Below, piece by piece: positions 11,982-30,334 of a stretch of DNA of 51,547 nucleotides. The DNA is from Klebsiella pneumoniae (GTDB taxonomy: Bacteria > Pseudomonadota > Gammaproteobacteria > Pseudomonadales > CAMAPQ01), in the NCBI GenBank assembly GCA_945860125.1, contig CAMAPQ010000009.1:1-51547 (forward strand), in the 5' to 3' direction. Made by a program: the position numbers and the translations under genes. Below the pieces are notes generated by a model. The model did no database searches. It was not told the origin of the DNA and was given only the letters and a program-made list of their open reading frames with translations. The number at the start of each line of letters is the position of its first letter. The first letter of the stretch is position 1.

Positions 11982-12117
11982 CCCTCCACCCTCATACAAA
12001 ATTAGTAACGTTGTGAGCTATTATAGCATTTACTTTTATTTTTATTTTTTGATGGCCGCTATCAATTCATTAAACCCACTGATAAAATAGGGTTTTAATT
12101 ATTTGGAACCTGTAGCT

Positions 12118-12372
12118 ATGCGCGCACACCGTTACCATAAACTTTTTCTTTCGCGAACGTCTTACCTTACGCTTTTATTAATATCAGCTCTTTTCTTATC
12201 TGCCTGCCAAAATATGGGCGTTAAATCATGGGAAAAAGCAACGTTAGCCAAACCAGAAATGCAGCTAGATAGCCATAAAACTGATAACGCTTTTGATGAG
12301 CATATTTATTTCAGCAAAGAATCAGCCAGCGGCGGACGTGGTTTTGGCGGAGGTGGCTGCGGATGCAACTAA
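12118..12372 (+). CDS. DUF4266 small lipoprotein with Gly-Cys tail
   Basis: This 84-residue lipoprotein has its lipobox at LSACQN and the family features VKSWEKATLA, H...HIYFSKE and the C-terminal FGGGGCGCN. DUF4266 proteins are regularly encoded with a DUF3570 outer-membrane protein and ApbE, as here, implying a shared envelope redox or metal function that is not defined. The last bases overlap the start of the DUF3570 gene by 10, suggesting coupling. The two tail cysteines could bind metal or be modified. I chose ATG 12118 over TTG 12103. Confidence 0.85.
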   Translation: MRAHRYHKLFLSRTSYLTLLLISALFLSACQNMGVKSWEKATLAKPEMQLDSHKTDNAFDEHIYFSKESASGGRGFGGGGCGCN

Positions 12373-13679
12373 ATAAAACAGAAGAAAACACATTAAAAAA
12401 CAGGTTGAGAAAAGCCACTCAGATTCTACTGGGTGCAACTATTAGCTCAACGCTAAGCGCAACAGTAATGCCTATTTTGAGTTATGCATCTGAAACGCCG
12501 CTACTGATTGATAGCGCGCTTTTACTCTACTCAGAATCAGATAACCGCGTGCAAGCTTTTGAGCCAACACTACAGTTGCAAAAAGTGTATGGCGATAGAA
12601 AAGCAATGAGCTTAAAAATTGTATTGGATAGTTTGACGGGGGCAACACCAACCGGTGCACTGCCACAAGATACCATACAAACTTTTACACGACCTTCAGG
12701 AAATGGCAGCTATGCTGTAGCACCCTACGCTACCCCCTTAGATGACACCTTTAAAGATACACGCGCCGAAATTAATGCAGGCTTAACACAACCACTCTCA
12801 CGCTTTAATACGCTAAGTTTAGGCGGCCATCTTTCAAGAGAATATGATTTTGATTCATTAGGCGCAAGTGCGAGTGTTGCTCATGATTTTAATGAACGTA
12901 ATACAACATTTAATATTGGCCTAAATTTGGAACAGGATCAGTTTAGACCAGAAGGCGGTATCCCCATTCCTTTTGGTGCAGTTCAGCCTGTAGGAAGCAC
13001 TCAACCAAGGGGTGATAAGAGCGATACTAAACTGGTTATTGATTTTCTAGCCGGCATTACACAAGTGATGAGCCATAATTGGTTAACGCAGCTGAATTAT
13101 TCTATTAGCCAGTCCTCAGGTTATTTAACGGATCCTTTTAAGTATCTTTCTTTATTGGAAGATGGTAGTTACAACCTTGCCTCGAACAATGCTTATCGCT
13201 TTGAAAGCCGACCAGACTCTCGCAATAAGCAAAGCTTATTTTGGGAAAATAAATATCATCTATTTGGCGATACAGTTACCGCTTCTTATCGTTATTTTTG
13301 GGATGATTGGAATGTTAAAGCACACACGTTTGACTTTCGTTATCGCTGGAATATGAACGCTAAAAACTATATTGAACCTCACTTCAGATTTTACACGCAA
13401 ACAGAGGCTGACTTTTATAAAGCCTATTTATTGCAATCTGATATTCAAAATAATATACAAGAAGCGAGTGCGGATTATCGCCTTGCGCCATTTGACGCAA
13501 CAACGTTTGGCATTAAATATGGCCATATCATAGGAAAAGATGCGCAGTGGAATGTGCGCATTGAACAGTACCAGCAACAAGGTAGCTTGGATAATATTCC
13601 AACTGCTTTGCAAAAATATGAAATTTATCCTGATATGACGGCAACCATTTTACAATTTGGTTACTCTATGTCCTGGTAA
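12363..13679 (+). CDS. DUF3570 outer-membrane beta-barrel protein
   Basis: This 438-residue protein has an extended signal peptide (about 1-43) and alternating amphipathic strands to a C-terminal GYSMSW, typical of an outer-membrane barrel. Family features seen include DTRAEINAGLTQPLSR, SREYDFDSLGASAS and SRNKQSLFWENKYH. DUF3570 is of unknown biochemical role. It sits between DUF4266 and ApbE genes, an association that suggests it is the outer-membrane part of a three-component envelope system. Confidence 0.87.
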   Translation: MQLNKTEENTLKNRLRKATQILLGATISSTLSATVMPILSYASETPLLIDSALLLYSESDNRVQAFEPTLQLQKVYGDRKAMSLKIVLDSLTGATPTGALPQDTIQTFTRPSGNGSYAVAPYATPLDDTFKDTRAEINAGLTQPLSRFNTLSLGGHLSREYDFDSLGASASVAHDFNERNTTFNIGLNLEQDQFRPEGGIPIPFGAVQPVGSTQPRGDKSDTKLVIDFLAGITQVMSHNWLTQLNYSISQSSGYLTDPFKYLSLLEDGSYNLASNNAYRFESRPDSRNKQSLFWENKYHLFGDTVTASYRYFWDDWNVKAHTFDFRYRWNMNAKNYIEPHFRFYTQTEADFYKAYLLQSDIQNNIQEASADYRLAPFDATTFGIKYGHIIGKDAQWNVRIEQYQQQGSLDNIPTALQKYEIYPDMTATILQFGYSMSW

Positions 13680-13839: not shown

Positions 13840-14715
13840 ATGAAACAGAGCAGTATTAATGCTCATCCTGGGGAAAAACCACCTCTTTTTTCAGCCGCTT
13901 TTATGTCCATGGCAAGCCCTTGCCAAGTCGATATCAACATACAGAATAAAAAACAAGCCGAACAACTCATTAGCCTTATTCAAAAAGAAGCATGGCGAAT
14001 AGAACAAAAATTCAGTCGTTTTAGACAAGACAATCTTATTTATCTTATTAATCAGGGAAAAACCGTACAGCTAGACGATGAAATTGAAAAAATTCTACAT
14101 TATGCAGAAAATTGCTATCAATTAAGCGATGGCCTTTTTGACATTACAACTGGCACACTAAAAAAAATATGGCGATTTAATGATACTTTTCAATTTCCCT
14201 CTGTAGACGAAATTAACGATGCAAAAAAATGCGTCGGCTGGGAAAAAGTAATATGGCATCCCCCTTTTTTTCAGCTACCGCCTAAAATGGAAATTGATTT
14301 TGGTGGTCTTGTTAAAGAATATGCCGTTGATAAATGCGCCCAGTTGCTAATGGAACATTTTCCTGACGATTTTTTAATTAACTTCGGCGGTGATTTATTT
14401 ATTAAAGGTAAACATACCATCGGCATTGAAAACCCACATCTTTTAAATCATGCAGCAAGCGCTATTACAGCTAATACAGGTGGCATTGCAACCAGCGGCA
14501 CATCAAGACAGTATATAGATAGAGAAGGAAAGCGTTACAGCCATATTATTAACCCCAAAACAGGATACCCTGTTGAAGAGGCACCTAAGTCTGTCACAGT
14601 ATTTGCTGAAACCTGCATAGAAGCTGGCTTTTATGCAACCCTTGCCTTATTACAGGGCAAGAATGCACAAAAGTTTTGTGACGAAAACGAGATTAAGGCT
14701 TGGTGTATTTTTTAA
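13840..14715 (+). CDS. FAD:protein FMN transferase (ApbE family)
   Basis: ApbE enzymes attach FMN covalently to a Thr/Ser of a target protein, using FAD and Mg2+. Seen here are FMSMASPCQVDI, DGLFDITTGTL, EIDFGGLVKEYAVDKC, NFGGDLF and the family signature HIINPKTGYPV. There is no signal peptide or lipobox, so it may act in the cytoplasm or depend on another start. The 291-residue length is slightly short for the family. It follows DUF4266 and DUF3570, and no obvious flavinylation substrate is in the window. Confidence 0.9.
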   Translation: MKQSSINAHPGEKPPLFSAAFMSMASPCQVDINIQNKKQAEQLISLIQKEAWRIEQKFSRFRQDNLIYLINQGKTVQLDDEIEKILHYAENCYQLSDGLFDITTGTLKKIWRFNDTFQFPSVDEINDAKKCVGWEKVIWHPPFFQLPPKMEIDFGGLVKEYAVDKCAQLLMEHFPDDFLINFGGDLFIKGKHTIGIENPHLLNHAASAITANTGGIATSGTSRQYIDREGKRYSHIINPKTGYPVEEAPKSVTVFAETCIEAGFYATLALLQGKNAQKFCDENEIKAWCIF

Positions 14716-15871: not shown

Positions 15872-17899
15872 ATGGTAACGCTTACTTTTTGGCACTGGGT
15901 TGGAATTATACAGCTGTTCACTTTACTGGCAAGCAGTAATATTTTCTTCTATTTATATCATCGTAAATTGAAAAAAAAGTGCGCTCAAAGATTAGCACTA
16001 GCAGAAAGCGCCATAAAAAAAGCCTCAGACTTAAAAGAAAAATTAGCTCAAATTAAAGCGAACATCCTTGCAAAAACAGAAGAACCCATCTCACAAGAAA
16101 ATCCACAAATAGAAGAAATGGGGCTTACTTTATCTAGCACAGATGACCCTTTAACCTTTCTTGATAAGCTACAAAAAGAAGCAGAGTTACGCTTACAGGA
16201 TTTAGGTATTTATTCAACAGACTTTGATCCTTCATTAGATGCACAACAGCAAACAGCATTACTCAGATATCACTTTGCAGAAGCAGAAAAAAAAGTTTTT
16301 GCAGTTGAGAATGATCCTATTCTCATCTGGGAAATAATAGATGGCGCATTACATACATTAATACATAAATCACCCGAACAAGAATCTGGCACTAATTTAA
16401 ATGAAAGTATGACAAATCAACTAATGGAAGATAACGCCACACTTAATAAAGAATTAGAAGAAGAAAAAGAAAAATTTAAAAAAGCAGCTGATTATTGGAA
16501 AAGCAAACTTAAAGAAATTAAAAAAGGTTATCCACTACTGCTAGAAAACTTAAAAGAAAATAATGAAGAATCATTAATGAGCGATCTAAATAATTTATAT
16601 AGCGCTTATATAGAAACAGGTTATTTACTTGATCAAAATAGCATGGAGCTCACCCATGATAGCGACTTAGAAACAATCCAAAAAGAACAGAAAAAAGTAC
16701 CGCTTGATGAGGAAAAATCAGAAGAAAAAAACAAGAAACATTTTAGTTATGAGGAAGTTGGTACACTTAATAATATTATTAATGCCCAAATGAGCGAAAT
16801 TAAAGAGCTAAGAGATGAGTTTAATAAAAATGAAAAACTTAGCTCAATTAAAGCAGATTTAGAGAAAAAACTTATCCGTTTTGAAAGCAAAATAAAAGAA
16901 ACCGAATCTTGCATTTTGATGCTAGAGAAAAAAATAAAAGAAGACCAAGATGAAAACTATGTAGAAAAAACAAAAGAAAGAAAAGACAAACTAAAAGGAG
17001 AATTACGTAGCAAAGAATTAATAAGCCTCATGAAAAAAGAGCACCAATTAATGATTAATCAAAGCTTGCCAAATAAAAATAAACACGATCTTATTATTTC
17101 AACAGATAGACTTGTAAATTACATGATTGAAATGGGCTCTTATCTGGGCGTTAGTGAAAACCGAATCGATTCATCAAGCTTAATTAGTAAAGTGATTGAT
17201 CAATCATCAAAAGAAGCGGCCGCATTGAAAAAAGACAGTCTCTTTGCACAATCGAAGGAAACGGCCAAACCTGTTCTTGAAAGCGCAGCTACTGAAGTAA
17301 ATAAATTAAAATTAGTTGTTTATAAACAAAGAACTGTAATTAATAAGTTGGTAGAACGTATTCAGCATCTTGAAAAACATGAAGATAAAATTCAGTTTAT
17401 TGAAGAATATGAAGCCAACGTAAAACAACTCGATAGTATTCTAAAAGAAAATAATACGTGTATTGAAATGCTTGAAAAAGAGCTAGATGGTGCTAATAAC
17501 AATATTAATACACTTGAAAATGAATTAACGTATTTAAAACAGCAACTCGAAATGGCAGAAAATGAACGCTCAGAAAAAGAAGCAGAAAATCAAAAACAAA
17601 ACGAAGCTTTACTAATGAAAAATGCCAATAAAAATAATGCAGAGGCAAATAATATAGAGGAAAAAATTGAAACCCTAGAAACACCAATACCAATATTAAC
17701 TGTAAAAGATACGCCTACTAACAAAGAATTTAATCAGTTTGGTTTACAAAGCGAACCAGACACAGAAGAGCAAATTGATTTTGACTCCCCCTATAGTAAT
17801 GTCGGCGGCATGGATATAGATATCGAACAATCAACACAAGAGCTTGATGATATGCTGAAAGATATATATAAAAATGAGCCTGCCTCTAAAAAAAGATAA
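15872..17899 (+). CDS. Large membrane-anchored coiled-coil protein, function unknown
   Basis: No family was recognised in this 675-residue protein. A single N-terminal membrane helix (about residues 7-28, ending FYLYHRKLKKK) is followed by an extremely Lys/Glu-rich cytoplasmic region. Heptad-like coiled coils are clearest at about 180-225, 290-370 and 470-580, and the tail is acidic (DIDIEQSTQELDDMLKD). The layout suggests a long membrane-tethered rod, such as a structural, septal or scaffold protein. The ATG at 15872 has AAGG nine bases upstream. The promoter region contains a MITE-like element at 15664-15790. The Lys/Glu richness makes chance matches to other coiled coils likely, so homology searches need masking. 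Confidence 0.7.
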   Translation: MVTLTFWHWVGIIQLFTLLASSNIFFYLYHRKLKKKCAQRLALAESAIKKASDLKEKLAQIKANILAKTEEPISQENPQIEEMGLTLSSTDDPLTFLDKLQKEAELRLQDLGIYSTDFDPSLDAQQQTALLRYHFAEAEKKVFAVENDPILIWEIIDGALHTLIHKSPEQESGTNLNESMTNQLMEDNATLNKELEEEKEKFKKAADYWKSKLKEIKKGYPLLLENLKENNEESLMSDLNNLYSAYIETGYLLDQNSMELTHDSDLETIQKEQKKVPLDEEKSEEKNKKHFSYEEVGTLNNIINAQMSEIKELRDEFNKNEKLSSIKADLEKKLIRFESKIKETESCILMLEKKIKEDQDENYVEKTKERKDKLKGELRSKELISLMKKEHQLMINQSLPNKNKHDLIISTDRLVNYMIEMGSYLGVSENRIDSSSLISKVIDQSSKEAAALKKDSLFAQSKETAKPVLESAATEVNKLKLVVYKQRTVINKLVERIQHLEKHEDKIQFIEEYEANVKQLDSILKENNTCIEMLEKELDGANNNINTLENELTYLKQQLEMAENERSEKEAENQKQNEALLMKNANKNNAEANNIEEKIETLETPIPILTVKDTPTNKEFNQFGLQSEPDTEEQIDFDSPYSNVGGMDIDIEQSTQELDDMLKDIYKNEPASKKR

Positions 17900-17914: not shown

Positions 17915-18727
17915 TTAAGACCCACTCATTTCCCACCAAAGCGGGCAATGATCGCTGGGACGCTCCATACTACGAATATCATAATCAATACCCACACTGT
18001 GCGTTGCATCAATCAAATTTTCTGAAACCAAAATTAAATCAATGCGCAACCCTCTTCTTGGTGCTGCTTCAAAAGCACGACTTCGATAATCAAACCAACT
18101 GAGTTTTTTTTCATCTGTTGTATGTTTAAGATAACTATCTACCAAACCTACATTTAAAAGGGCTTGTAACCACTCACGCTCCTCAGGCAAAAAGCTACAC
18201 TTTCCATCTCTTAGCCATCTTTTTGCATTATCTTCACCAATACCAATATCACTCTCATGAAGCGCAACATTCATATCGCCCATTAAAACTAAAGAGGAAT
18301 CACAGGCCAGTTTAGCTTTAACAAAATCAGTAATATTGCGATAAAATAATTTTTTATTCGGGAATTTTATCGGATGGCCACGACTCTCACCTTGAGGAAA
18401 ATAACCATTACAAACCCATATAGAACGGGCACCCAACATCACTTCACAAGCAATAAACCTTTTCTGTGCCGCTTCCTCTTCTGCCTCAAAACCCTTTACC
18501 ACGTTAACCACAGGAAGCTTAGAAAGCAGCGCAACGCCGTAGTGTGCTTTTTGACCAAAATAACTAATGTTATAACCAAATCGCTCAAGATCGCTCAGGG
18601 GAAACTGAGGATCATCCACCTTTGTTTCTTGTAACCCAATAATGTCCGGTTGATGACGATCAATAATTGCTTCGAGCTGATGAAGTCTTGCTCTTAAGCC
18701 ATTAATATTGAAAGATATAATCTTCAC
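17915..18727 (-). CDS. xthA: Exodeoxyribonuclease III
   Basis: This AP endonuclease and 3'-5' exonuclease repairs abasic and oxidised DNA ends. Motifs of the EEP fold are complete: NINGLRARL, GLQETKVDD (metal Glu), GDMNVA (Asp/Asn), RIDLILVS and SDHCPLWWE (catalytic Asp-His). The 270-residue length is normal. Its start overlaps the upstream ydcF-like gene by 26 bases, so it is probably co-transcribed with it and perhaps with the hvf genes further upstream. That would put a repair enzyme for oxidative damage behind a copper-binding peptide operon. Confidence 0.94.
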   Translation of the reverse strand: MKIISFNINGLRARLHQLEAIIDRHQPDIIGLQETKVDDPQFPLSDLERFGYNISYFGQKAHYGVALLSKLPVVNVVKGFEAEEEAAQKRFIACEVMLGARSIWVCNGYFPQGESRGHPIKFPNKKLFYRNITDFVKAKLACDSSLVLMGDMNVALHESDIGIGEDNAKRWLRDGKCSFLPEEREWLQALLNVGLVDSYLKHTTDEKKLSWFDYRSRAFEAAPRRGLRIDLILVSENLIDATHSVGIDYDIRSMERPSDHCPLWWEMSGS

Positions 18728-19646
18728 TCACCACGCCCCTTTTCTTCCTTTTTTGTACCATCTCATTTTTAATATCGCTCATTTTAAGCTCTTCAAAATC
18801 AACACCGCTCACTCTTAAATTCCAGCGATAGGCAAACAAGCCTAAATACTCATGCAATGAAATTCTGATGAGCCTAAAAGAATCAATCGTTGGCAGTGAT
18901 TTTTGTACTGGCTCCTGAAGCGGAATTCTCGTTAAAGAAAAGTCTGTAGGCGCAGGAATAACTTCTATACCTTGCTGCTCAAAACAATAAAGCGCCCGCC
19001 TCATGTGATAAGCACTGGTTACCAAAACAACTGTTTTGATGCCCTTCTCCTTGAGTAACTTAACCGAGTTTGTTGCATTTTCCCAAGTATTAATACTTTC
19101 AGACTCACGCCAAGTAACATGGCCACCAAACTCATTAACAAAATTAGCCATCATTGCAGATTCTGGTTTTTCACGCTTAACGGCAATACCACCGCTGACT
19201 AATAACGGAAGATCTAATCGTTTCTGTAGCCAAATGGTATAAAGTAGACGAGGAATAGCATCTCTGGTTACACCATCTTCGCCATATTCTGGCTGCTTAT
19301 AGGCTTTCCCCCCCCCTAAAGTGACAATAGCAACTGATTTATTTTTCGCATAAGCTTCACGAATGGAATCAAATTCTGCCTGCTTGAGCGGTGGAATATC
19401 TTCAAGTGATGAAATAAGAAACTCTGCCATCCATCCATTTGAAAAAAGCAAACAAACTAAAGAAGTTGCAATGACACCTTTCGAAAAGCGTTTGAACCGC
19501 GAAAAATAATAAAAAAGATAGCCAAAAGCTATAAACAATATAAATAAGGTAGGGGATAAAAATAACGCTTTCAAAAAATAGTAAAACTGCACAAAGAACT
19601 CGCTAGACTTTATTTTAAGGTCTTCAGACAAAAACGATACAACCAA
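18702..19646 (-). CDS. YdcF/ElyC-type (DUF218) membrane protein
   Basis: Two N-terminal membrane helices (about 25-50 and 55-75) precede a DUF218 domain marked by VTLGGGKAY, LLVSGGI, ESINTWENA and VTSAYHMRRA. E. coli ElyC of this family supports peptidoglycan assembly at low temperature; the biochemical reaction is not defined. The frame opens at a TTG (19646) inside the end of the DoxX-type gene, and no in-frame ATG lies upstream of the hydrophobic region. Overlaps on both sides place it in the hvf transcription unit. Confidence 0.82.
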   Translation of the reverse strand: MVVSFLSEDLKIKSSEFFVQFYYFLKALFLSPTLFILFIAFGYLFYYFSRFKRFSKGVIATSLVCLLFSNGWMAEFLISSLEDIPPLKQAEFDSIREAYAKNKSVAIVTLGGGKAYKQPEYGEDGVTRDAIPRLLYTIWLQKRLDLPLLVSGGIAVKREKPESAMMANFVNEFGGHVTWRESESINTWENATNSVKLLKEKGIKTVVLVTSAYHMRRALYCFEQQGIEVIPAPTDFSLTRIPLQEPVQKSLPTIDSFRLIRISLHEYLGLFAYRWNLRVSGVDFEELKMSDIKNEMVQKRKKRGVVSEDYIFQY

Positions 19647-20230
19647 TCATCCAAACTAACAAAACGACCACCACCTGAACTTATTAATACGAGTAACATG
19701 ATTAAATATGTTACAGCGAACTCAATACCGTTATTTAAAATAACAAAATTGCCGCTACTCGTAAGCCATTCATAATTACCATGCGCCTGAAGAATTTCTT
19801 TGGCTTTTTCTAGTTTTTCCGCTGAAGCAATAACACGTTCATTTGCAAAAAAAGCAGGATCAGGATTTGAAACTGCTAACCAACCGAATGGCCCATGTAC
19901 CGTTGTGATAGCAACAAGCATAGTCACCAATAGTGGAATAGCAATAAAACGAACACCTAAACCAACCACCAGAAGAAAGCTACCAAATAGTTCTGTCAAG
20001 GTAGCAAGCCATGCCATGATTACAGGGAAAGGCAAGCCTAAGCCATCAGGACTCCCAAACCAATCAATAATAGCATCAATTGATTCATATTTATGATATC
20101 CCGCAAAAAAGAAGATCGGCGCTAAATATAGCCTTAAAGCCAGAATGCCAATAAAATCCATTTTTTTTAAAAGACTTACTAAAAAATTAACAAACCTAAA
20201 TCCTTGCCGAAAATACGCTTTCACTGTCAT
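19610..20230 (-). CDS. hvfX: DoxX-family membrane protein, HvfX-like
   Basis: This 206-residue protein has four or five hydrophobic segments and DoxX features (LALRLYLAPIFFFAGYHK and LATLTELFGSFLLVVGLG). A periplasmic-type insertion lies between helices (about 110-165), and it ends GGGRFVSLDDWL. DoxX proteins of this kind are the fourth member of Hvf-type copper-binding peptide operons, where a role in maturation or export is suspected but unproven. I chose ATG 20230, 22 bases after the hvfC stop with AAGAGAG upstream; an earlier GTG lies inside hvfC. Confidence 0.85.
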   Translation of the reverse strand: MTVKAYFRQGFRFVNFLVSLLKKMDFIGILALRLYLAPIFFFAGYHKYESIDAIIDWFGSPDGLGLPFPVIMAWLATLTELFGSFLLVVGLGVRFIAIPLLVTMLVAITTVHGPFGWLAVSNPDPAFFANERVIASAEKLEKAKEILQAHGNYEWLTSSGNFVILNNGIEFAVTYLIMLLVLISSGGGRFVSLDDWLYRFCLKTLK

Positions 20231-20252
20231 AAAAATATTGGCTCTCTTATAA

Positions 20253-21032
20253 TCAAAGATGAAAAAATAAAACACCTCGGCTAATCATATCTTCAAATAA
20301 AACTTTGCCATGAGAAATAAAGTCAGTATTCAAAGTAAGATTAAGCTCACTAGCAATAATATCTAGGCTAGACTCGGCTGAAATTCCAGTATTTTGCTCA
20401 AATAAAGTTAACAATCTTGCTGTAACCTGGTTAATCTCTAAGCACTCAACTTGGTCATCTCTATTTCGGTAAACTAAAAGATGCGTTAATTCAGACTGAG
20501 CAGGAATGATACCACTTGAAATACGGTGTACAGGATAGCGATACACTAAAACCCAAGCTAAGGGAGATAAATAAAGCGGGCAAGATAACAAATCAGGGGT
20601 ACTTAACTCAAGCAGCATAGGGTCACAAGCAGTAGCAGGAAAATCTTCTTCACTAATGTCAATAGCAAGCTCTACCCACTCAAAATGTGCTAAATCAAGC
20701 ATAAAGGGAGGATCATTCTCGCCATTCCTCTCATTTTGTAAATACTTAAGAAACTCAATGCCTATTTCACAAAAATAAGGCGATGTAGAAACATGTCGAT
20801 GAATAAAATCACGAATCATCTCATGCCAAATAGCTTCAGACGTAATACTTCTTAAAATAGGAAAGCCATTTGAAATAAAGTCTTCAATGTTATTATAAAT
20901 TAAACGCTGATAAATTTTCATTCGCAATTCAGCGACGCTCTGAGGTATAGCGTAATTTTCAGGATGACGTATATTCTGCGTAAATTTTTTTTGCACTTCC
21001 TGAAAAGGATAAGAAATCAGACACTCTGCCAT
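20253..21032 (-). CDS. hvfC: DUF2063 RiPP-maturation partner, HvfC-like
   Basis: This 259-residue protein of the DUF2063 family has the characteristic start (FQEVQKKFTQNIRHP), then RMKIYQRLIYNNIEDFIS, GFPILRSI and the acidic helix FEWVELAIDIS. DUF2063 proteins act with the adjacent MNIO (DUF692) enzyme, probably by binding and presenting the precursor peptide. The ATG is immediately next to the hvfB stop codon, indicating coupling. The C-terminal half (LLVYRNRDDQVECLEIN) resembles a small peptide-binding winged-helix module; I infer that from its order and size only. Confidence 0.9.
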   Translation of the reverse strand: MAECLISYPFQEVQKKFTQNIRHPENYAIPQSVAELRMKIYQRLIYNNIEDFISNGFPILRSITSEAIWHEMIRDFIHRHVSTSPYFCEIGIEFLKYLQNERNGENDPPFMLDLAHFEWVELAIDISEEDFPATACDPMLLELSTPDLLSCPLYLSPLAWVLVYRYPVHRISSGIIPAQSELTHLLVYRNRDDQVECLEINQVTARLLTLFEQNTGISAESSLDIIASELNLTLNTDFISHGKVLFEDMISRGVLFFHL

Positions 21033-21932
21033 TTATCCTCCTACAGCAAGATTATAATCAGCAGAATTCTTTTTTGATTTTAGTACGGAAGATGAAGCGT
21101 CTCGGTTTACCATCCCCTGAATCATTTTTATTTTTTCTACTTCTTTTAGCAGAACATCAAAAGGCGGCAAATTAAAATCTCTTTCAAGCAAAGTAGGATA
21201 GACGCCATGAAACTGATAAGTGTATCGTAACAAATCCCATACAGGGTTAATAACATCAGCACCATGAGAATCAATAATTAAATTTTCTGCTTCATTCGCA
21301 TGACCAGCAATATGTATATAAACAATACGATCAGTAGGTATTTTACGTATAAATTCCAACGCATCATACTGATGATTTATACTATTTACATAAATATTAT
21401 TAACATCTAAAAGCAAAAAGCAGTCTGCTTCTTCAAGAATAGCATTTAGAAAAGTTATTTCATCCATTTCTTGGCCAGGCGCGCAATAATAAGAAACATT
21501 TTCGATTGCTATTTTACGCCCTAAAAAATCCTGCACTTGCCGTAGCCTAGCAGCAACATACTTAACTGAATCATCCGTAAAAGGAATAGGCATGAGATCA
21601 TAAAGGTGGCCATGATCGCCGCAATAGCTTAGATGCTCAGAGTAAATTCCTATGGAATAACGATTTAAAAAGAGCTTCAATTCAGCCAAAAAATCAAAAT
21701 CTAACAAGTGGGGAGCACCAATAGATAAAGATAAGCCATGCGCAACAATTGGGTATTTCTCAGCAATTGCAGATAACTCCCTACGAGATTTACCACCCAT
21801 CCTGATCCAGTTCTCAGGCGCAAGCTCTAAAAAATCAACAGGTGCTTTATCAGATAAAGCAAACGAGCTCATAAGAGCTCGCCGCAAACCCAAGCCAGCA
21901 CCATGAACGGCAGATAAATCATGCAGTATCAT
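21033..21932 (-). CDS. hvfB: MNIO-family (DUF692) multinuclear iron oxidase, HvfB-like
   Basis: MNIO enzymes use two or three iron ions and O2 to convert precursor cysteines to oxazolone/thioamide or related groups. The TIM-barrel motifs are complete: GAGLGLR, ELAPENW, His65 in VAHGLSLSIG, Glu99-His100 in YSEHLSY, Glu144-Asn145 in AIENVSYY, Asp176 in LLLDVNNIYVN, His207/His211 in IHIAGH, Asp221/His223 in DSHG and Glu250 in LLERDF. The 299-residue length is typical. The ATG follows TGAGG eight bases upstream. The precursor gene is 28 bases upstream and the DUF2063 partner directly abuts downstream. Confidence 0.95.
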   Translation of the reverse strand: MILHDLSAVHGAGLGLRRALMSSFALSDKAPVDFLELAPENWIRMGGKSRRELSAIAEKYPIVAHGLSLSIGAPHLLDFDFLAELKLFLNRYSIGIYSEHLSYCGDHGHLYDLMPIPFTDDSVKYVAARLRQVQDFLGRKIAIENVSYYCAPGQEMDEITFLNAILEEADCFLLLDVNNIYVNSINHQYDALEFIRKIPTDRIVYIHIAGHANEAENLIIDSHGADVINPVWDLLRYTYQFHGVYPTLLERDFNLPPFDVLLKEVEKIKMIQGMVNRDASSSVLKSKKNSADYNLAVGG

Positions 21933-21960
21933 AGTAATGCCTCAGCTCATACTCGCAAAA

Positions 21961-22302
21961 TTACTTCGCTTCAGCAGGTGCTTTGTCTTTATGAGCACCA
22001 CACTTGCCTTCACCACACTTGCCATCTTTTTTCTTGCCTTCACCACACTTGCCTTCTTTCATTTTGCCTTCACCACACTTACCTTCTTTCATTTTGCCTT
22101 CACCACACTTACCTTCCATGCCTTTTTCACCGCACTTGCCCTCGGCTGCTTTAGTGTCATCTGCAGCAACTTGGAATGAACCTTTAACTTCTTTGGCAGC
22201 AAAAGGATTGCCGTGATCTTGTTGCGCCTGCACACTTACAGAAGAAAGAGCTGAAACAACCAATGCTGCGCCTAAAGTACCTATCATTGCTTTCTTAGAC
22301 AT
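21961..22302 (-). CDS. hvfA: Cys-rich copper-binding RiPP precursor with EGKCG repeats, HvfA-like
   Basis: The 113 residues comprise a Sec signal peptide (1-26, ending VSVQA), a spacer (27-53) and a core of six cysteines at 57, 66, 76, 86, 96 and 101. Five lie in EGKCG and one in DGKCG, separated by short EGKMK-like links. HvfA-type precursors carry EGKCG motifs that the MNIO maturase converts to thiooxazole or oxazolone-thioamide groups that bind Cu(I). With hvfB, hvfC and hvfX downstream, the assignment is firm at system level. The ATG follows TAGGAGA at good spacing. The DNA under the core is a 30-base tandem repeat. A C-terminal AHKDKAPAEAK follower is present. Confidence 0.93.
   Translation of the reverse strand: MSKKAMIGTLGAALVVSALSSVSVQAQQDHGNPFAAKEVKGSFQVAADDTKAAEGKCGEKGMEGKCGEGKMKEGKCGEGKMKEGKCGEGKKKDGKCGEGKCGAHKDKAPAEAK
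22006..22122. repeat. 30-bp tandem repeat inside the hvfA core
   Basis: Units start at 22006, 22036, 22066 and 22096 (partial), each opening GCCTTCACCACACTT. Each unit encodes a ten-residue block with one EGKCG cysteine. Copies 22036 and 22066 differ by one base, implying recent duplication and a copy number that may vary between strains. Confidence 0.9.
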
Positions 22303-22811
22303 TGAAATCTCCTAAACATAGATTTATTAAAAATAAATTAAACTCTCAATCCAACACTTAACCATGCCAAAAAGCTGGCGGTATCAACCTCAAAGCTGAT
22401 ACTACAACTTTGAAACAACAACCAAGCTAATAATATTGACTTAACCTACCCAAAAAAGTTCAAGCATTTTCAAACAATCAATATTTGATACCAACCATAA
22501 AACAACTATTCCACGGACTAAGCGCCAGTGTAACATCATGAATATAATGATGAGCCACCCATTTAAATACTAGATAAATAACCATAAAAAGCAAATAAAG
22601 GCACAGCAAAATCAAGTTTATTTTTTGTGAAGTAGATCGTAGTTTTTTTGACCTATAAAAATAACAATGCAACCACCACGACAAAAAATCTATTTTTTAA
22701 TCTACTCAACATTTAAAAAAAACCATCAAATATATTAATATTTAATATTGAGGCAAAAAAGCGCAATTAATTTAGCAGCCAGATAAAACGAGCAAAATAA
22801 GAGAGGACAAA
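22303..22811. other. 509-base AT-rich intergenic region between divergent genes
   Basis: The stretch holds the hvf promoter and that of the lipoprotein gene at 22812. One small frame (22478-22684, minus) has a TTG start, no ribosome site and one hydrophobic segment; I do not call it a gene. No repeat or RNA element was recognised. Confidence 0.5.
22326..22354 (-). promoter_or_regulatory. Possible sigma-70 promoter of the hvf operon
   Basis: Read on the minus strand, TTGGAT and TTTAAT are separated by 17 bases and lie 24-52 bases before the hvfA ATG. This is a pattern match only, in AT-rich DNA. An ECF-sigma-type promoter, common for such operons, was not recognised. Confidence 0.3.
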
Positions 22812-24425
22812 ATGATTAACTATTATTTAATATCACAAAATTTATACCGAGCAAAAAAAACAAAACTTTTATTCCTATCACTTTTCTATGTATTCAATCT
22901 TTTAATATTAAATGCATGTGGCAATAGCAATTCATCTAAAACATCTGAAGATGTAAACCAAGAAAATGCCATTAATATCACAGGCAAAAATGTCTCTGGT
23001 AATTTGCTTTCTATTATTAAAACAGCAGGCGGAACAGTAGAGGGCTCGGGTATTAATTGTGGCACAACCTGCTCAGGTTATTATAAAGGACAAGAAAATG
23101 TAACGCTTATAGCAACACCAGAATCAGGCTTTATTTTTAATGGTTGGGAAGGTGATTGTGCAGGCATGGGAAGTTGTGAAGTTCAAGTTAACATACCAAA
23201 AGAAGTACGTGCTTCCTTTACAGCAATAAATACAGCAGACTTATGTATAGGGCTTATAACAGATAAAAGTGAAAAAATTATTCAGCCTGTGACACAACCC
23301 AATATCAAAGAGAGTTACATTGATCCTACTTTTGGAACACGTATTACACGCATAACGCAAAGCGAATCAAGCCGTCCTATAAAACCAATGTACAGTACCA
23401 TACAAGCGTGGAATAGCGATGAATCATATTTTATATTATATGAAGTGGGAAAAGGACACCGTCTATATAGCGGAAAAAATTATGATTTCATTTCCTACCT
23501 TGATATTAGCCCGAGTGATATTGAAGGCGTTTACTGGCATTTTTCAGATCCTAATACACTTACTTATATTGATAATAATGAGAAAAAAGTCATTCAATAT
23601 CATATTTCCATAAAAACTAAAAATACTATTATTGACCTCAAAAACACCTGCAACTCAAATATTGTAAGCGGTGGCGATATACAAATGAGTTCATGGGATA
23701 GCAATAATATTGGCTTTAGATGTAACGGGAAAAGTGGAAAAATAGCAGGCTATATTGATATCAATCAAAAGACTACTCATGTTTTTAGCAGTAAGGACAA
23801 AAACTACAGTGAATTTATTGCACCCATGCCTTCAGCAAGTGGAAAATATTTTTATATGCAAGGTGATATACTTGATAAAAACTTAAACTTAGTGAGAAAA
23901 CTTGATCTGTCTAACGCACTAGAGCACGCTAACTTAGGAAAAGATCATTTAGGGGAAGATGTCTATCTCACCGCCATATTTGATCCGGGCGCTAAAGGAT
24001 GCGAAGTGGGTAGCGTTGTGATGCACAACTTGGCAAGCGGTGCCTGCGATGTCCTTGCAGGACCCAGCACTGGTCTGCCCTATCCACCACCGAACACACA
24101 TATTTCTGCTCAGGCTTATAAAAATACTGGCTGGGTTGCTGTCTCCACAATTGGTGAAGGTGATAATCTACCCTCAGCCAATGCCCAGAAAAAACTACCT
24201 ACAACTATTGGAGAGATTTATCTTGTGAATACCGATCCTTCACAAACCCGTTTTTGCCGCGTAGCTCACCATAGAACATGGGGAAAATCAGGCAATAACG
24301 GCTATTGGGCTGAACCGCATCCTGCCATAAGCCCGACAGGAACACGAATACTATTTAGTAGTGATTTTCATAACACAGGCAGAACGGATACTTACGTTGT
24401 TGAACTGCCGAGCTTTGCAAAATAA
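22812..24425 (+). CDS. Lipoprotein with InlB-type B-repeat and WD40/TolB-like propeller
   Basis: This 537-residue lipoprotein has its lipobox near residue 36 (LILNACGNS). Residues about 68-138 form one bacterial B-repeat (GGTVEGSGINCGTTC, ENVTLIATPESGFIFNGWEGDC, ending VRASFTA). From about 150 onward are repeated blades of a beta-propeller (DESYFILYEV, YWHFSDPNTLTYID, HPAISPTGTRILFSSDF), like oligogalacturonate-lyase/TolB-type propellers. No catalytic residues are recognised; a surface binding role is plausible. The upstream hvf operon is divergent. A strong terminator follows at 24472-24506. Confidence 0.75.
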   Translation: MINYYLISQNLYRAKKTKLLFLSLFYVFNLLILNACGNSNSSKTSEDVNQENAINITGKNVSGNLLSIIKTAGGTVEGSGINCGTTCSGYYKGQENVTLIATPESGFIFNGWEGDCAGMGSCEVQVNIPKEVRASFTAINTADLCIGLITDKSEKIIQPVTQPNIKESYIDPTFGTRITRITQSESSRPIKPMYSTIQAWNSDESYFILYEVGKGHRLYSGKNYDFISYLDISPSDIEGVYWHFSDPNTLTYIDNNEKKVIQYHISIKTKNTIIDLKNTCNSNIVSGGDIQMSSWDSNNIGFRCNGKSGKIAGYIDINQKTTHVFSSKDKNYSEFIAPMPSASGKYFYMQGDILDKNLNLVRKLDLSNALEHANLGKDHLGEDVYLTAIFDPGAKGCEVGSVVMHNLASGACDVLAGPSTGLPYPPPNTHISAQAYKNTGWVAVSTIGEGDNLPSANAQKKLPTTIGEIYLVNTDPSQTRFCRVAHHRTWGKSGNNGYWAEPHPAISPTGTRILFSSDFHNTGRTDTYVVELPSFAK

Positions 24426-25362: not shown

Positions 25363-25866
25363 TTATGGTGCACCAGAAGGTATCAAGCCAGTAATTGCAT
25401 CAAAAACACTCTGACCATCAGCACCCAAAGCAGTTTTAAGCAAACTACCCGCTGCAAAATCAGTAGCAAGCGTTGTCGTTGGACCTCCAGCACCTTGCTG
25501 AGCAACACCAATGCCGGCGCCTGGGCTACAGGTACTTGCACCAAAAGAACCTATCGCTACTTTGCCGCAAGCAGAGCCGCCAGCAAGCGCGACGTTAACA
25601 ACTGAGATCTCATCAAATAAACCACTAACGGTTACTTTTGAATTAATATTGCCAGCTTTCGTTGTGCCATGAAAAGAACCAATACTAGTTTCCACTTCAG
25701 ATGTCGCTAACGCTGCACCTAAGTTAATAACCATACCCTTTACTTCAACGGTTGAATTAATATCGCCTGCGACATCTGTTGTTGAAGTAAGTGCAGATAC
25801 TGTGAAAGGCGCTGAGATTAACGCCGCAGTAATAGCTAAAGATAACATTTTCATTTTCATTTTCAT
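25363..25866 (-). CDS. Secreted repeat protein A of the putative fibre locus
   Basis: This 167-residue protein has a signal peptide (MKMKMKMLSLAITAAL, cleaved near TVSA). The mature part appears to hold two related units of about 38-42 residues. The first opens GDINSTVEVKGMVINLGAAL and ends VETSIGSF; the second opens GNINSKVTVSG and ends CGKVAIGSFGASTC. A Gly/Ala/Thr-rich C-terminal region follows. The pattern matches two other proteins here (26312 and 27976), making a three-member family. Alternating polar/hydrophobic strands with fixed IGS turns suggest a beta-solenoid or amyloid-like subunit; this is inference. GGAAGG lies just before the ATG. Confidence 0.7.
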   Translation of the reverse strand: MKMKMKMLSLAITAALISAPFTVSALTSTTDVAGDINSTVEVKGMVINLGAALATSEVETSIGSFHGTTKAGNINSKVTVSGLFDEISVVNVALAGGSACGKVAIGSFGASTCSPGAGIGVAQQGAGGPTTTLATDFAAGSLLKTALGADGQSVFDAITGLIPSGAP

Positions 25867-26311: not shown

Positions 26312-26689
26312 CTACCTATTATCAATGTAACTTTTACATGTGCCAGGGCCTATAGAGCCAATAGATACTTTTGCACAAATACCCTCATTACCACCTTCAC
26401 TTAGCGCTGTATTTAATACGCTAACACCAGTTTTAATACCATTAACTGAAATATCAGTCGTATAATTTCCATTTATTTTTAAATCATTATGAGCTGAACC
26501 AATACTTACTTCAGTTTCTATAGCACTTGCCTGCCCTAAGACAGCACCAAGATTAATAACTATACCTTGAACATCAATATTTGAATTAAGGTCGCCACCC
26601 AAATTAAAGCTTTCAGAAAAAGAAATCATAGAAAAAGAAAGCGCACTAAAAAATACTCCCAAAATAAATATTTTTTTTTTAATTCTCAT
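26312..26689 (-). CDS. Secreted repeat protein B of the putative fibre locus
   Basis: This 125-residue protein has a signal peptide (MRIKKKIFILGVFFSALS, cleaved near SFSES). Two units match those of protein A: GDLNSNIDVQGIVINLGAVL ending EVSIGSAH, then TTDISVNGIKTGVSVLN ending CAKVSIGSIGPGTC. It lacks A's long C-terminal extension and ends shortly after the second unit. GGTGG lies 6 bases before the ATG. The two cysteines in the second unit, conserved across all three paralogues, could form a disulfide. Function is inferred only from the neighbourhood. Confidence 0.7.
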   Translation of the reverse strand: MRIKKKIFILGVFFSALSFSMISFSESFNLGGDLNSNIDVQGIVINLGAVLGQASAIETEVSIGSAHNDLKINGNYTTDISVNGIKTGVSVLNTALSEGGNEGICAKVSIGSIGPGTCKSYIDNR

Positions 26690-26789: not shown

Positions 26790-27551
26790 CTAATTAAACC
26801 ATCCTTTTTTCTTTTTAATCGAGATACCTGTCGAACATACCACAAGACTAATTCTTCTATTTAATGTTCTTGCAGAATCATCTGCATTTTCAGCCCTAGG
26901 CGTCATTTCACCTTTTCCCGCACCTACTGTACGCTCAGGCAATACTTCATTCTTATTTAGGTAACGCTCAACGTTATAAGCACGATGCTCAGATAGTAAT
27001 TGATTATACTCAACAGGACCTGAATCATCAGCATGCCCTATAACCTCAATTCGAGTTTCAGGATATTCAGCTAATTTTTTAGTTAAACGATCTAATACTG
27101 GATAAAAAGAAGGCTCAACATGGGTCATATCAAATGGAAACCCTCGTACATTTGGCATCTCTATCCAAACAGTTTCTTTTCGTCTATGAATAAATAAATG
27201 TTCACGATGAAAGTCTTTTCTTAATTCTTGCTCAAGCTTATCAAGATAAGCCCAATCAATATTTTTTCCTTCCGCACAAAAAGGCACTGGTTTATTCTTT
27301 AAATCACCTGATTCAGACTTATTCTTAGTTAATGGATTAGCGCCCACCGTTACATTATAAAAAGTAGCGATCAAACCTTCAGACTTGAAATTACGATCTT
27401 TATCAATATCACCGGAGTAGGGATCAGTATATCTAGGGCCCTGACAACCAGAAGTAAAAAGAGATGACACAAAAAATAAGCTCACAAAACAAAAACGCCT
27501 AGGAAACGGCATAAATGCAACTTTAACGTGCCTAGAAGATGATGAAATCAT
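26790..27551 (-). CDS. OmpA-domain lipoprotein
   Basis: This 253-residue lipoprotein has its lipobox at about 33-36 (TSGC). The C-terminal OmpA-like peptidoglycan-binding domain (about 145-240) shows TRIEVIGHADDSG, EYNQLLSEHRAYNVERYL, RTVGAGKGEM and LNRRISLVV. The N-terminal half is a divergent domain without a recognised family. It would tether an outer-membrane complex to the cell wall, as CsgE/F-like or Pal-like partners do in other export systems. It heads the leftward arm and is divergent from the CsgG-like arm. AGGA lies 8 bases upstream of the ATG. Confidence 0.85.
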   Translation of the reverse strand: MISSSSRHVKVAFMPFPRRFCFVSLFFVSSLFTSGCQGPRYTDPYSGDIDKDRNFKSEGLIATFYNVTVGANPLTKNKSESGDLKNKPVPFCAEGKNIDWAYLDKLEQELRKDFHREHLFIHRRKETVWIEMPNVRGFPFDMTHVEPSFYPVLDRLTKKLAEYPETRIEVIGHADDSGPVEYNQLLSEHRAYNVERYLNKNEVLPERTVGAGKGEMTPRAENADDSARTLNRRISLVVCSTGISIKKKKGWFN

Positions 27552-27975
27552 TTATTTTTCCTATATACAGATCTTTTTTTCATATTTTATAAACGTATCC
27601 TTGTTATCTTTGCTCAGCTTATTGTGAAAAGACTAAAGCCTTAAATCATAAGCTTGGGATAGCATCTGCTGTATTTTTAACCTTATTATTTTAATAACAG
27701 ACTGAAGACATTAAGCATAAGCTAGCAAACTTTACCAACCTTAATCAAGCATTTAAAGCTATCGCAATGTTTTTTTTTACAATTGATATACATAAGCATT
27801 TAAAAAAAACAAAACGTTAACACTTTAATCGTAAAAATCGGGGTTAAATTGAGTTTTATCGACTTTTTTGGTAAAAAATGCATTATGCTGATTGAAATTG
27901 GGATAATAAGTGAAGTACATTATCTCTTGTAAGGATAAACAAACAATAAGATTAAGATAATTACAGGGTGTGAAT
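27552..27975. promoter_or_regulatory. 424-base divergent control region of the putative fibre locus
   Basis: The region separates the OmpA-type lipoprotein (left) from the repeat-protein/CsgG-like arm (right) and must hold both promoters. It is AT-rich. No operator could be defined by eye. Confidence 0.4.
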
Positions 27976-28299
27976 ATGATTGACATAAACAACTTTCCCG
28001 GCTTTGCCCGCTTTTTGGTTTCTCTCATTACTTTTTCATCTTTATTCGTGCTTCCAGCTTATGCCGCACCTAATCTTACTGGTGATGTTGATATTGTTGT
28101 GAGCACACAAGAAATAATTAATATTGCAACAGATGACGCCTCAATTGCAGAAGTTATTTTAGGCTCATTTATTGATGGTAAGGCTACTGACTTTCAAGCG
28201 ACTGTAACAACTCAATCAGTGACAAACTCAGCCTCTGGCGGTGCTTGCTCTCAGGTAATCATAGGCTCGGTGGGACCAACCACATGTCTTGGCAATTAA
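27976..28299 (+). CDS. Secreted repeat protein C of the putative fibre locus
   Basis: This 107-residue protein has a signal peptide (GFARFLVSLITFSSLFVL, cleaved near AYA). It contains two short units: GDVDIVVSTQEIINIA ending VILGSF, then ATVTTQSVTNSASGGAC ending VIIGSVGPTTC. The closing motif V-x-I-G-S-x-G-P-x-T-C is shared with protein B and, less exactly, protein A. It is the most compact member. I chose ATG 27976, with AGGG at 7 bases, over the GTG six bases upstream. It is the first gene of the rightward arm leading to the CsgG-like protein. Confidence 0.7.
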   Translation: MIDINNFPGFARFLVSLITFSSLFVLPAYAAPNLTGDVDIVVSTQEIINIATDDASIAEVILGSFIDGKATDFQATVTTQSVTNSASGGACSQVIIGSVGPTTCLGN

Positions 28300-28380: not shown

Positions 28381-28764
28381 ATGAAAAAAGTGACTCAATA
28401 CGCTCATTTACTACTTGCTGCTGTATTATTTACAGCAAGCAAGCCTGCCTTGGCAGGAAGTGGCATAAACCCTAAAAGCAATGCTTATTCGGGAGGCTAC
28501 TCTTATACACCAGTTAAAGGACGCGTTCAGATTTATAAGTATAAAGCGCTAGATGCAAGGCTACCCAGAACAGATAAATATAAAAGCATTGTAAGCAGTG
28601 GCAACACTGACTATATGCGTTTTAGTGGTGACTCACTGCCTACTCTTGGTGATTGCTCGATTAATATTGGAAATATTTTTTCAAATAATAACGATAAATT
28701 TAGTAAAAAAGAAACGATGGTCATTATCGATGGTGATGTACTCAATGTTAGTAAATGCGATTAA
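28381..28764 (+). CDS. Small secreted protein, HfaA-like (tentative)
   Basis: A signal peptide (MKKVTQYAHLLLAAVLF, ending KPALA) is followed by a 102-residue mature protein: SNAYSGGYSYTP near its start, a basic middle and a C-terminal stretch INIGN...ETMVIIDGDVLNVSKC. From memory, the Asn/Gly/Tyr-rich start and the IGN...V-I-D-G ending recall HfaA, the small amyloid-like holdfast-anchor protein of Caulobacter. Similarity is weak. The gene directly precedes and overlaps a CsgG/HfaB-like gene, the same order as hfaA-hfaB, which strengthens the idea. Confidence 0.55.
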   Translation: MKKVTQYAHLLLAAVLFTASKPALAGSGINPKSNAYSGGYSYTPVKGRVQIYKYKALDARLPRTDKYKSIVSSGNTDYMRFSGDSLPTLGDCSINIGNIFSNNNDKFSKKETMVIIDGDVLNVSKCD

Positions 28765-30334
28765 AATAATTAAAAATATTTTCGTGGTAACCCTTATTAT
28801 TACCACCCTATCAACCTCAACTGGATGCGCTCGCTTTTTATTTGGTGACAAGGCATTATCACGTAACCCAGCAGAAAAACCAGTTGTGAATATTACGACA
28901 TTTTCTGACTCGCTTGAATGCATGGATGAAATGCTAATTCAGTTTGAAGTACCCGTTATTACTGTCACAGCTCAAGACATTCCAAATAGATCGACTGACG
29001 TGGGTATTACAAATGGCGCAAAGGAAATGCTGATTACCTCCATGTCAAAACTCTCAGAAAGAAGTGAACGTATTCGCTTTGTATCTTTTGGTTCAGATCT
29101 TCGTGATGTCGTCCTTCTACAGCAAGCTCACTCGAAAAAAGATACTTTTTCAGTACCAGACTTCTTTATAAGAGGCGGGATTACTCAATATGATCGCAAT
29201 GTTATTTCATCGCGTATTGGTACAGGTCTTAATCATGAAGACTGGAACACTACGATTTCCGGTGGACAGGGTATTTCATTTGCTGGGCTTGATCTCAACG
29301 CTGGTCTTGTTAGAAACCTGCAAATGCTATCTGGCGTTACGTCAAACAATGTGCTCGCGATTTACGATAAAGGCATGGGAACAGAAGTTGGTGCCCGCTT
29401 AAATTCAGTCGGTACATTTTTTGACTTTGGTTTAGATAAACAAGATGGCCTTGGCCAAGCTGTGCGCAACATGATCGACTTAGGCGCAATTGAAATTGTT
29501 GGTAAATTATACGATATCCCTTACCTGACCTGCTTACCGGTTAAATATGATGATCCTTATGTGACTAAACTTATACTTAAAGAATATAAGAGGTATCGCG
29601 ATAATTACTCCAAATTAATCAGAACGGTACAAGCCAGACTAAAACAAAATAATTATTATCGTGGCGAACTTACAGGTAAGCTCGACCAGAATACTTACCT
29701 TTCCATTGAATACTTTAGGCATCTTACAAAACTTCCTGCCACAGGCGGAGAAGTCATTGATTTCCCTCTTTATAAGGCGCTACTTTATGGAAAAAAATAC
29801 GACTGGGAATATGATGCTATTGGCTCAAAAGATACGCTAAATACTGCGATATCCCACAACAATGAAGCGCTTACCTTTGATAAATATGATGACTCCTATC
29901 CAAAATTAAACACAAAAAATCCAGGCTCAGCAGTGAGCCCGCCACCGCCTAATAAACTACTGAACACCAATAAAACGAGATCAAGCTTTACTGAGAAAGC
30001 TGAAGAAACAGCACCAACTCGTACTCAACGACCTAATGAATATAGAGGGCAAAATAAAGAACCAGCGCCAGAGATTCCAGCGCCCCTTGAAATAGAAATT
30101 ATCGATCAAAACGGCCAAAGACCAAACGCTTACTACGGAAGTGGAGTTGGAATGGATGGAAATAATACAGATGGCGCCAACCCCCAAAGAGGGACAAATA
30201 GTTCATCTAGACCCTATAGAGAAGGCGCATATGAAGCACAACAAAGACAACAAAACCAAAATCCAACAGGCGGCGCTCAACAGACAACGCCATACAAAAA
30301 ATCTATCTGGGATACTCAGTCTCCATACTACTAG
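28745..30334 (+). CDS. CsgG/HfaB-like secretion-pore lipoprotein with peptidoglycan-binding domain
   Basis: Signal peptide and lipobox (TSTGCARF) are followed by a CsgG-type region (about 40-255): ITTFSDSLECMDEM, FFIRGGITQYDRN, a beta-hairpin rich segment and NMIDLGAIEIVGKLYDIPY. CsgG-family lipoproteins form nine-fold outer-membrane pores that export curli or holdfast-anchor subunits. Next comes a peptidoglycan_binding_1-like segment (about 280-345: VQARLKQNNYYRGELTG, KLDQNTYLSIEYFRH) and a long Pro/Asn/Gln-rich tail. I chose ATG 28745, which gives a proper lipoprotein signal and a 20-base overlap with the upstream gene; the longest frame starts at 28598 but its first 49 residues lie in another gene. 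Confidence 0.8.
   Translation: MLVNAIKIIKNIFVVTLIITTLSTSTGCARFLFGDKALSRNPAEKPVVNITTFSDSLECMDEMLIQFEVPVITVTAQDIPNRSTDVGITNGAKEMLITSMSKLSERSERIRFVSFGSDLRDVVLLQQAHSKKDTFSVPDFFIRGGITQYDRNVISSRIGTGLNHEDWNTTISGGQGISFAGLDLNAGLVRNLQMLSGVTSNNVLAIYDKGMGTEVGARLNSVGTFFDFGLDKQDGLGQAVRNMIDLGAIEIVGKLYDIPYLTCLPVKYDDPYVTKLILKEYKRYRDNYSKLIRTVQARLKQNNYYRGELTGKLDQNTYLSIEYFRHLTKLPATGGEVIDFPLYKALLYGKKYDWEYDAIGSKDTLNTAISHNNEALTFDKYDDSYPKLNTKNPGSAVSPPPPNKLLNTNKTRSSFTEKAEETAPTRTQRPNEYRGQNKEPAPEIPAPLEIEIIDQNGQRPNAYYGSGVGMDGNNTDGANPQRGTNSSSRPYREGAYEAQQRQQNQNPTGGAQQTTPYKKSIWDTQSPYY

Follow-up and report, generated by a model that had tools for sequence, protein, structure and literature searches.

A complete hvfABCX-type operon with single-cysteine, methionine-alternating repeats that probably encodes an exported copper(I)-binding peptide

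Four adjoining genes, encoding a precursor peptide, an MNIO maturase, a DUF2063 partner and a DoxX-like protein, run from 22302 to 19610 on the minus strand of the window, by which we mean the whole 51,547-nucleotide stretch analysed (Table 1). The four consecutive Hvf-type genes announced in a preliminary description of this DNA are all present, and their products score above the curated NCBIfam cut-offs for the HvfA-family domain, HvfB, HvfC and HvfX. Pfam domains agree with this naming (PF05114, PF09836 with PF22106, and PF07681), and the gene order is the standard one, the same as in relatives. The genes are closely spaced: hvfA and hvfB are separated by 28 bp, the TAA stop of hvfB directly abuts the ATG of hvfC, which is preceded by AGGAGG, and hvfC and hvfX overlap or nearly overlap, depending on the start chosen for hvfX (the alternative, GTG at 20275, overlaps hvfC). 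No frameshift or internal stop was seen across the four open reading frames. Gene content, order, family membership, conserved residues and motif count are direct observations at this locus, which very probably is a complete hvfABCX (captophorin/Buf_EGKCG) operon making an exported Cu(I)-binding peptide.

Table 1. Features of the hvf locus in the window
Feature	Position	Strand	Details and basis
hvfA-like precursor (captophorin/oxazolin type)	21961..22302	-	113 aa; NF050137; motif positions, shuffle test, leader block common to relatives
Tandem DNA repeat coding GKCGEGKMKE units	21996..22116	-	30 bp x 3.8 copies, 94% matches; Tandem Repeats Finder
hvfB-like MNIO maturase	21033..21932	-	299 aa; NF003818, PF05114, PDB 3bww, invariant residues
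hvfC-like partner, DUF2063 + C-terminal RRE/NGO1945_C domain	20253..21032	-	259 aa; NF050145, PF09836, PF22106, PDB 3dee
hvfX-like DoxX membrane protein	19610..20230	-	206 aa from ATG 20230; NF050144, PF07681
Upstream intergenic region of hvfA	22303..22811	-	AGGAGA ribosome-binding site just before hvfA

All six Cys of the precursor (residues 57, 66, 76, 86, 96 and 101) lie inside [ED]GKCG motifs, five of them EGKCG and one DGKCG. When the mature part was shuffled 200,000 times, more than two such motifs never arose, and two arose in only 10 cases. The precursor scored 44.1 bits against both the HvfA domain model NF050137 (cut-off 19.5) and the stricter HvfA equivalog NF050188 (cut-off 95). 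The search against HvfA families suggested earlier as a check therefore succeeded for the domain but not for the equivalog, and we filed the precursor with the wider HvfA family rather than with the H. influenzae-type equivalog. A putative Sec signal covers residues 1-26, with KK in the n-region, a hydrophobic core and a VQA/QQ cleavage site judged by eye. It is followed by a leader block at residues 32-46 (NPFAAKEVKGSFQVA). The leader pattern NPF..x..L..GY is common to relatives, with PF present in 37 of 39 precursors, this one included, and the same leader occurs in L010, from the same order, and in L036, a BD1-7 clade bacterium, so that the window probably belongs to the broad Pseudomonadales as GTDB defines them. 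Since the block comes after the point where the signal is predicted to be cut, the mature peptide would retain it; the block may contribute to RRE binding. A text search for NPF in part of the family literature found no description of this block. An AlphaFold model of the precursor, made unaligned, was of very low confidence (pLDDT 47); a beta-helix idea has been published for 17-residue repeats.

Could the EGKCG open reading frame be a chance or low-complexity repeat rather than an MNIO substrate? The repeat does arise from a 30-bp tandem duplication. However, the frame matches the curated HvfA domain model, shares a conserved signal peptide and NPF leader with relatives, stands first in the cluster, and has a motif count far above that of the shuffles. 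We give this explanation almost no credence.

The maturase scored 418.5 bits against NF003818 (cut-off 360) and 345 bits against PF05114, and it matches PDB 3bww (E 6e-80), an MNIO reported to be 72% identical to H. influenzae HvfB (PMC13419390). Residue conservation was read by aligning 58 MNIOs found in relatives. The window protein keeps all invariant His, Asp, Glu and Asn positions (H65, H100, E144, D176, N178, N179, H207, H211, D221, H223, E250 and D252), in agreement with the earlier claim that all metal ligands are present. Replacing N175, D242 or H244 with Ala inactivates H. influenzae HvfB (PMC13419390); by motif and by alignment with 3bww, these residues are the probable equivalents of N178, D221 and H223 here. 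R17, R18 and D252 are conserved across the 58 MNIOs, and F253 adjoins D252 in an ERDF motif. In FonB, R15/R16 and D249/F250 set Glu-Gly-Lys-Cys-Gly selectivity and supply the base (PMC13097082). By motif, R17/R18 and D252/F253 correspond to these residues, and HvfB has the Arg-Arg pair, Asp base and Phe that characterize the captophorin MNIO. Other assignments of the maturase were rejected: it fell below the equivalog cut-offs for bufferin BufB (273.4 bits, cut-off 310) and methanobactin MbnB (38.1 bits, cut-off 325), and below the ChrH and ApyH maturase cut-offs.

The DUF2063 partner and DoxX-like protein of the preliminary description likewise matched the HvfC and HvfX models. HvfC (PME1) scored 263 bits against NF050145 (cut-off 142), carries PF09836 and PF22106, the required combination of DUF2063 and RRE, and matches a solved relative, PDB 3dee (E 3e-9). 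HvfX scored 213 bits against NF050144 (cut-off 80) and also matches PF07681; it was modelled as a bundle of membrane helices (pLDDT 81). Among 14 aligned HvfX proteins, the conserved polar residues include R33, K47, E80, R94, H112 and N166 and there is no conserved Cys, which would argue against a disulfide-relay role. A Foldseek search with the HvfX model gave no significant match. The best VIA match, the assembly factor NACHO/TMEM35A, has a Z score of 11.9, too low for helical bundles, and we therefore drew no function from it.

What would such an operon make? In the close homologues oxazolin, fontiphorin, gonophorin and bulbicupramide, each Cys becomes a 5-thiooxazole, with a change of -4 Da, binding Cu(I). 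The ring is proven and copper is bound in fontiphorin, oxazolin and gonophorin (PMC13097082); HvfB, which needs its partner HvfC, makes the six 5-thiooxazoles of oxazolin (PMC13419390); and in Microbulbifer the six Cys of MmrA lose 24 H in all, giving a product that binds Cu(I) (PMC12538549). An earlier oxazolone/thioamide assignment of the heterocycle has been revised to 5-thiooxazole (PMC13097082, PMC13419390). Because the chemistry is solved for these homologues, the expectation that precursor Cys in this family become copper-binding heterocycles is well founded. Moreover, FonBC accepts DGKCG, the one variant motif in the window precursor (PMC13097082). By analogy with the characterized homologues, the Cys chemistry and copper binding very likely hold here as well.

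We propose that the RRE domain of HvfC would bind the unmodified HvfA precursor, comprising the signal peptide and the NPF...F/Y leader block, and activate HvfB. With a mixed-valent diiron site and O2, HvfB would convert each EGKCG or DGKCG Cys into a 5-thiooxazole, with loss of 4 H per Cys at up to six Cys per peptide. The modified peptide would then leave through Sec, with the signal cut after VQA, and in the periplasm or at the cell surface it would bind several Cu(I) and buffer or sequester copper. HvfX would be an accessory membrane protein of DoxX fold.

A close parallel in gene content is hvfABCX/oxazolin of nontypeable Haemophilus influenzae (PMC13419390), which has four genes of the same families, a signal peptide and six EGKCG-type Cys. 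However, H. influenzae HvfA has three AEGKCGEGKCG pairs (PMC13419390), whereas the Cys of the window precursor are mostly single and spaced 9-10 residues apart, with Met at three of the vacant pair positions; the score is also below the HvfA equivalog cut-off. The captophorins fontiphorin (Fontimonas thermophila) and gonophorin (Neisseria gonorrhoeae) share the MNIO, the DUF2063/RRE partner, the EGKCG precursor and the selectivity residues, but the fon cluster has no DoxX gene and FonA has seven modified Cys (PMC13097082). The mmrABC/bulbicupramide system of Microbulbifer shares EGKCG repeats with five to eight Cys, a conserved leader and a variable core; it differs in its two-Cys cassettes and in having no hvfX reported in the cluster (PMC12538549). 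Bufferins (DUF2282 Buf1 and Buf2 with 6 or 12 Cys) are also exported copper-binding RiPPs with MNIO, DUF2063 and DoxX proteins, but their precursors belong to other families (PMC12452194), and the window MNIO falls short of the BufB equivalog.

The layout of the precursor repeat sets it apart. The preliminary description was right about the six-Cys EGKCG-type repeat and, as judged by eye, the signal peptide, but each repeat unit has 10 residues and a single Cys instead of the usual EGKCGEGKCG pair. The Cys are spaced 9, 10, 10, 10 and 5 residues apart, and only 2 of 6 have a partner five residues away, which departs from the paired cassette that is usual but not strictly required. We compared pairing over 64 precursors, the window precursor counted in: 45 are fully paired, and in four, among them this one, no more than a third of the Cys are paired. 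Mostly unpaired Cys were also seen in the precursors of L003, L007 and L042, the last a Methylomonas MAG whose precursor has 20 Met in its core. In three units of the window precursor, a Met stands exactly five residues after the Cys, giving the order C-M-C-M-C-M-C-K-C-C, and no other precursor among the 64 has as many such Met. Two of the three Met units come from the 30-bp tandem duplication, and they therefore do not represent three independent events.

FonA substrate with one repeat was not modified, whereas substrate with two repeats was (PMC13097082); since most Cys here have no neighbour at five residues, full modification of the window peptide is not certain. One improbable but specific idea is that the alternating Cys and Met form a mixed ligand set, in which isolated 5-thiooxazoles ten residues apart, with a Met thioether midway, would create defined Cu(I) sites. 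For paired EGKCG peptides, a disordered copper network has been proposed.

The physiological role is harder to assign than the chemistry. The preliminary description left a choice between a chalkophore-like and a buffering peptide, and published data lean toward copper sequestration, detoxification or buffering over acquisition. A chalkophore would be a modified peptide secreted to acquire scarce copper, as methanobactin is, and both the Cu(I)-binding heterocycles and the export signal would suit it. However, no TonB-dependent receptor, exporter, aminotransferase or protease gene lies near the operon, and pathways of the HvfA family are reported to be induced by excess copper, gold or oxidative stress, not by starvation. 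We consider acquisition very improbable. Buffering, the half of the earlier proposal that these data favour, is probably the role of the peptide, by analogy with its relatives.

The same reports of induction by gold and oxidative stress raise another alternative, that the intact operon makes a product for another metal or for oxidative or thiol stress, with copper binding incidental. The Microbulbifer mmr operon is not copper-induced and gives only slight copper protection in E. coli (PMC12538549), so that even in close relatives the physiological role can only be called putative, and the DoxX family has been linked to oxidative or sulphur stress. Nevertheless, all characterized products of the HvfA family bind copper, and we regard this alternative as unlikely next to copper buffering. 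Upstream of hvfA, promoter-like sites are about as many as chance predicts (13 against 11.2 expected), no copper-responsive operator was identified and no RNA element matched in Rfam; an alignment of three upstream sequences shares little beyond the ribosome-binding site. The assembly contains two copper-type P-type ATPases above cut-off and no match to CueR; this last result and the lack of an identified operator count against the main reading. A search for pMMO/AMO, which would represent a large copper demand, gave no match, but its control gave none either.

Several neighbouring genes were also noted. An ElyC-like DUF218 gene (18702-19646, minus strand) has a TTG start inside hvfX and may be co-transcribed with the hvf genes; it has no match in any relative locus, and we therefore treated it as a neighbour and not as part of the operon. 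It is followed by an exonuclease III-like gene (17915-18727). Upstream of hvfA lies a divergent lipoprotein-like gene with an InlB B-repeat (Flg_new_2) domain (22812-24425, plus strand). Farther away on the plus strand, a DUF4266 lipoprotein ending in GGGCGCN (12103-12372), a DUF3570 protein (12363-13679) and an ApbE FMN transferase (13840-14715) form a set linked to protein flavinylation through ApbE, and 15872-17899 encodes a 675-aa single-TM protein with a long coiled coil and no confident Pfam family. Three small secreted proteins (25363-25866 and 26312-26689, minus strand; 27970-28299, plus strand) have motifs such as LGAVLG and IGS.G..TC in common and no Pfam match. They flank an OmpA-like lipoprotein (26790-27551) and a large CsgG-like/peptidoglycan-binding protein (28598-30334), likenesses recognized by eye, and the group resembles a surface-fibre type locus.

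How common is this system? Of 293 genomes sampled in the host's order, 126 (63 of 118 genera) have an HvfA-domain match, which shows how routine this copper-binding RiPP is there, and 26 of 56 genomes in the search of relatives have HvfB above cut-off. One published survey counts about 2,000 Buf_EGKCG precursors, and a second one counts over 24,000 MNIO-partner loci. The MNIO encoded by hvfB is the only one found in the 97%-complete assembly, and no second EGKCG precursor was found there; none of the viral contigs searched carries the MNIO. The closest HvfB proteins found share only about 56-62% identity with the window protein, and no other member of the host's bacterial family is among the genomes sampled. 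The earlier suggestion that the locus had probably not been studied in its host is plausible, although the system as such is very common and has been studied thoroughly.

The operon is thus an ordinary example of that system and leaves the picture of the family unchanged; it adds one more complete locus, from a bacterial family not otherwise represented in the sampled genomes. If the mixed-ligand idea were true, this HvfBC would be able to modify isolated Cys, whereas FonBC left a single-repeat substrate unmodified. The single-Cys, Met-alternating repeats are a natural variant with which to test how the maturase and copper binding depend on Cys spacing.
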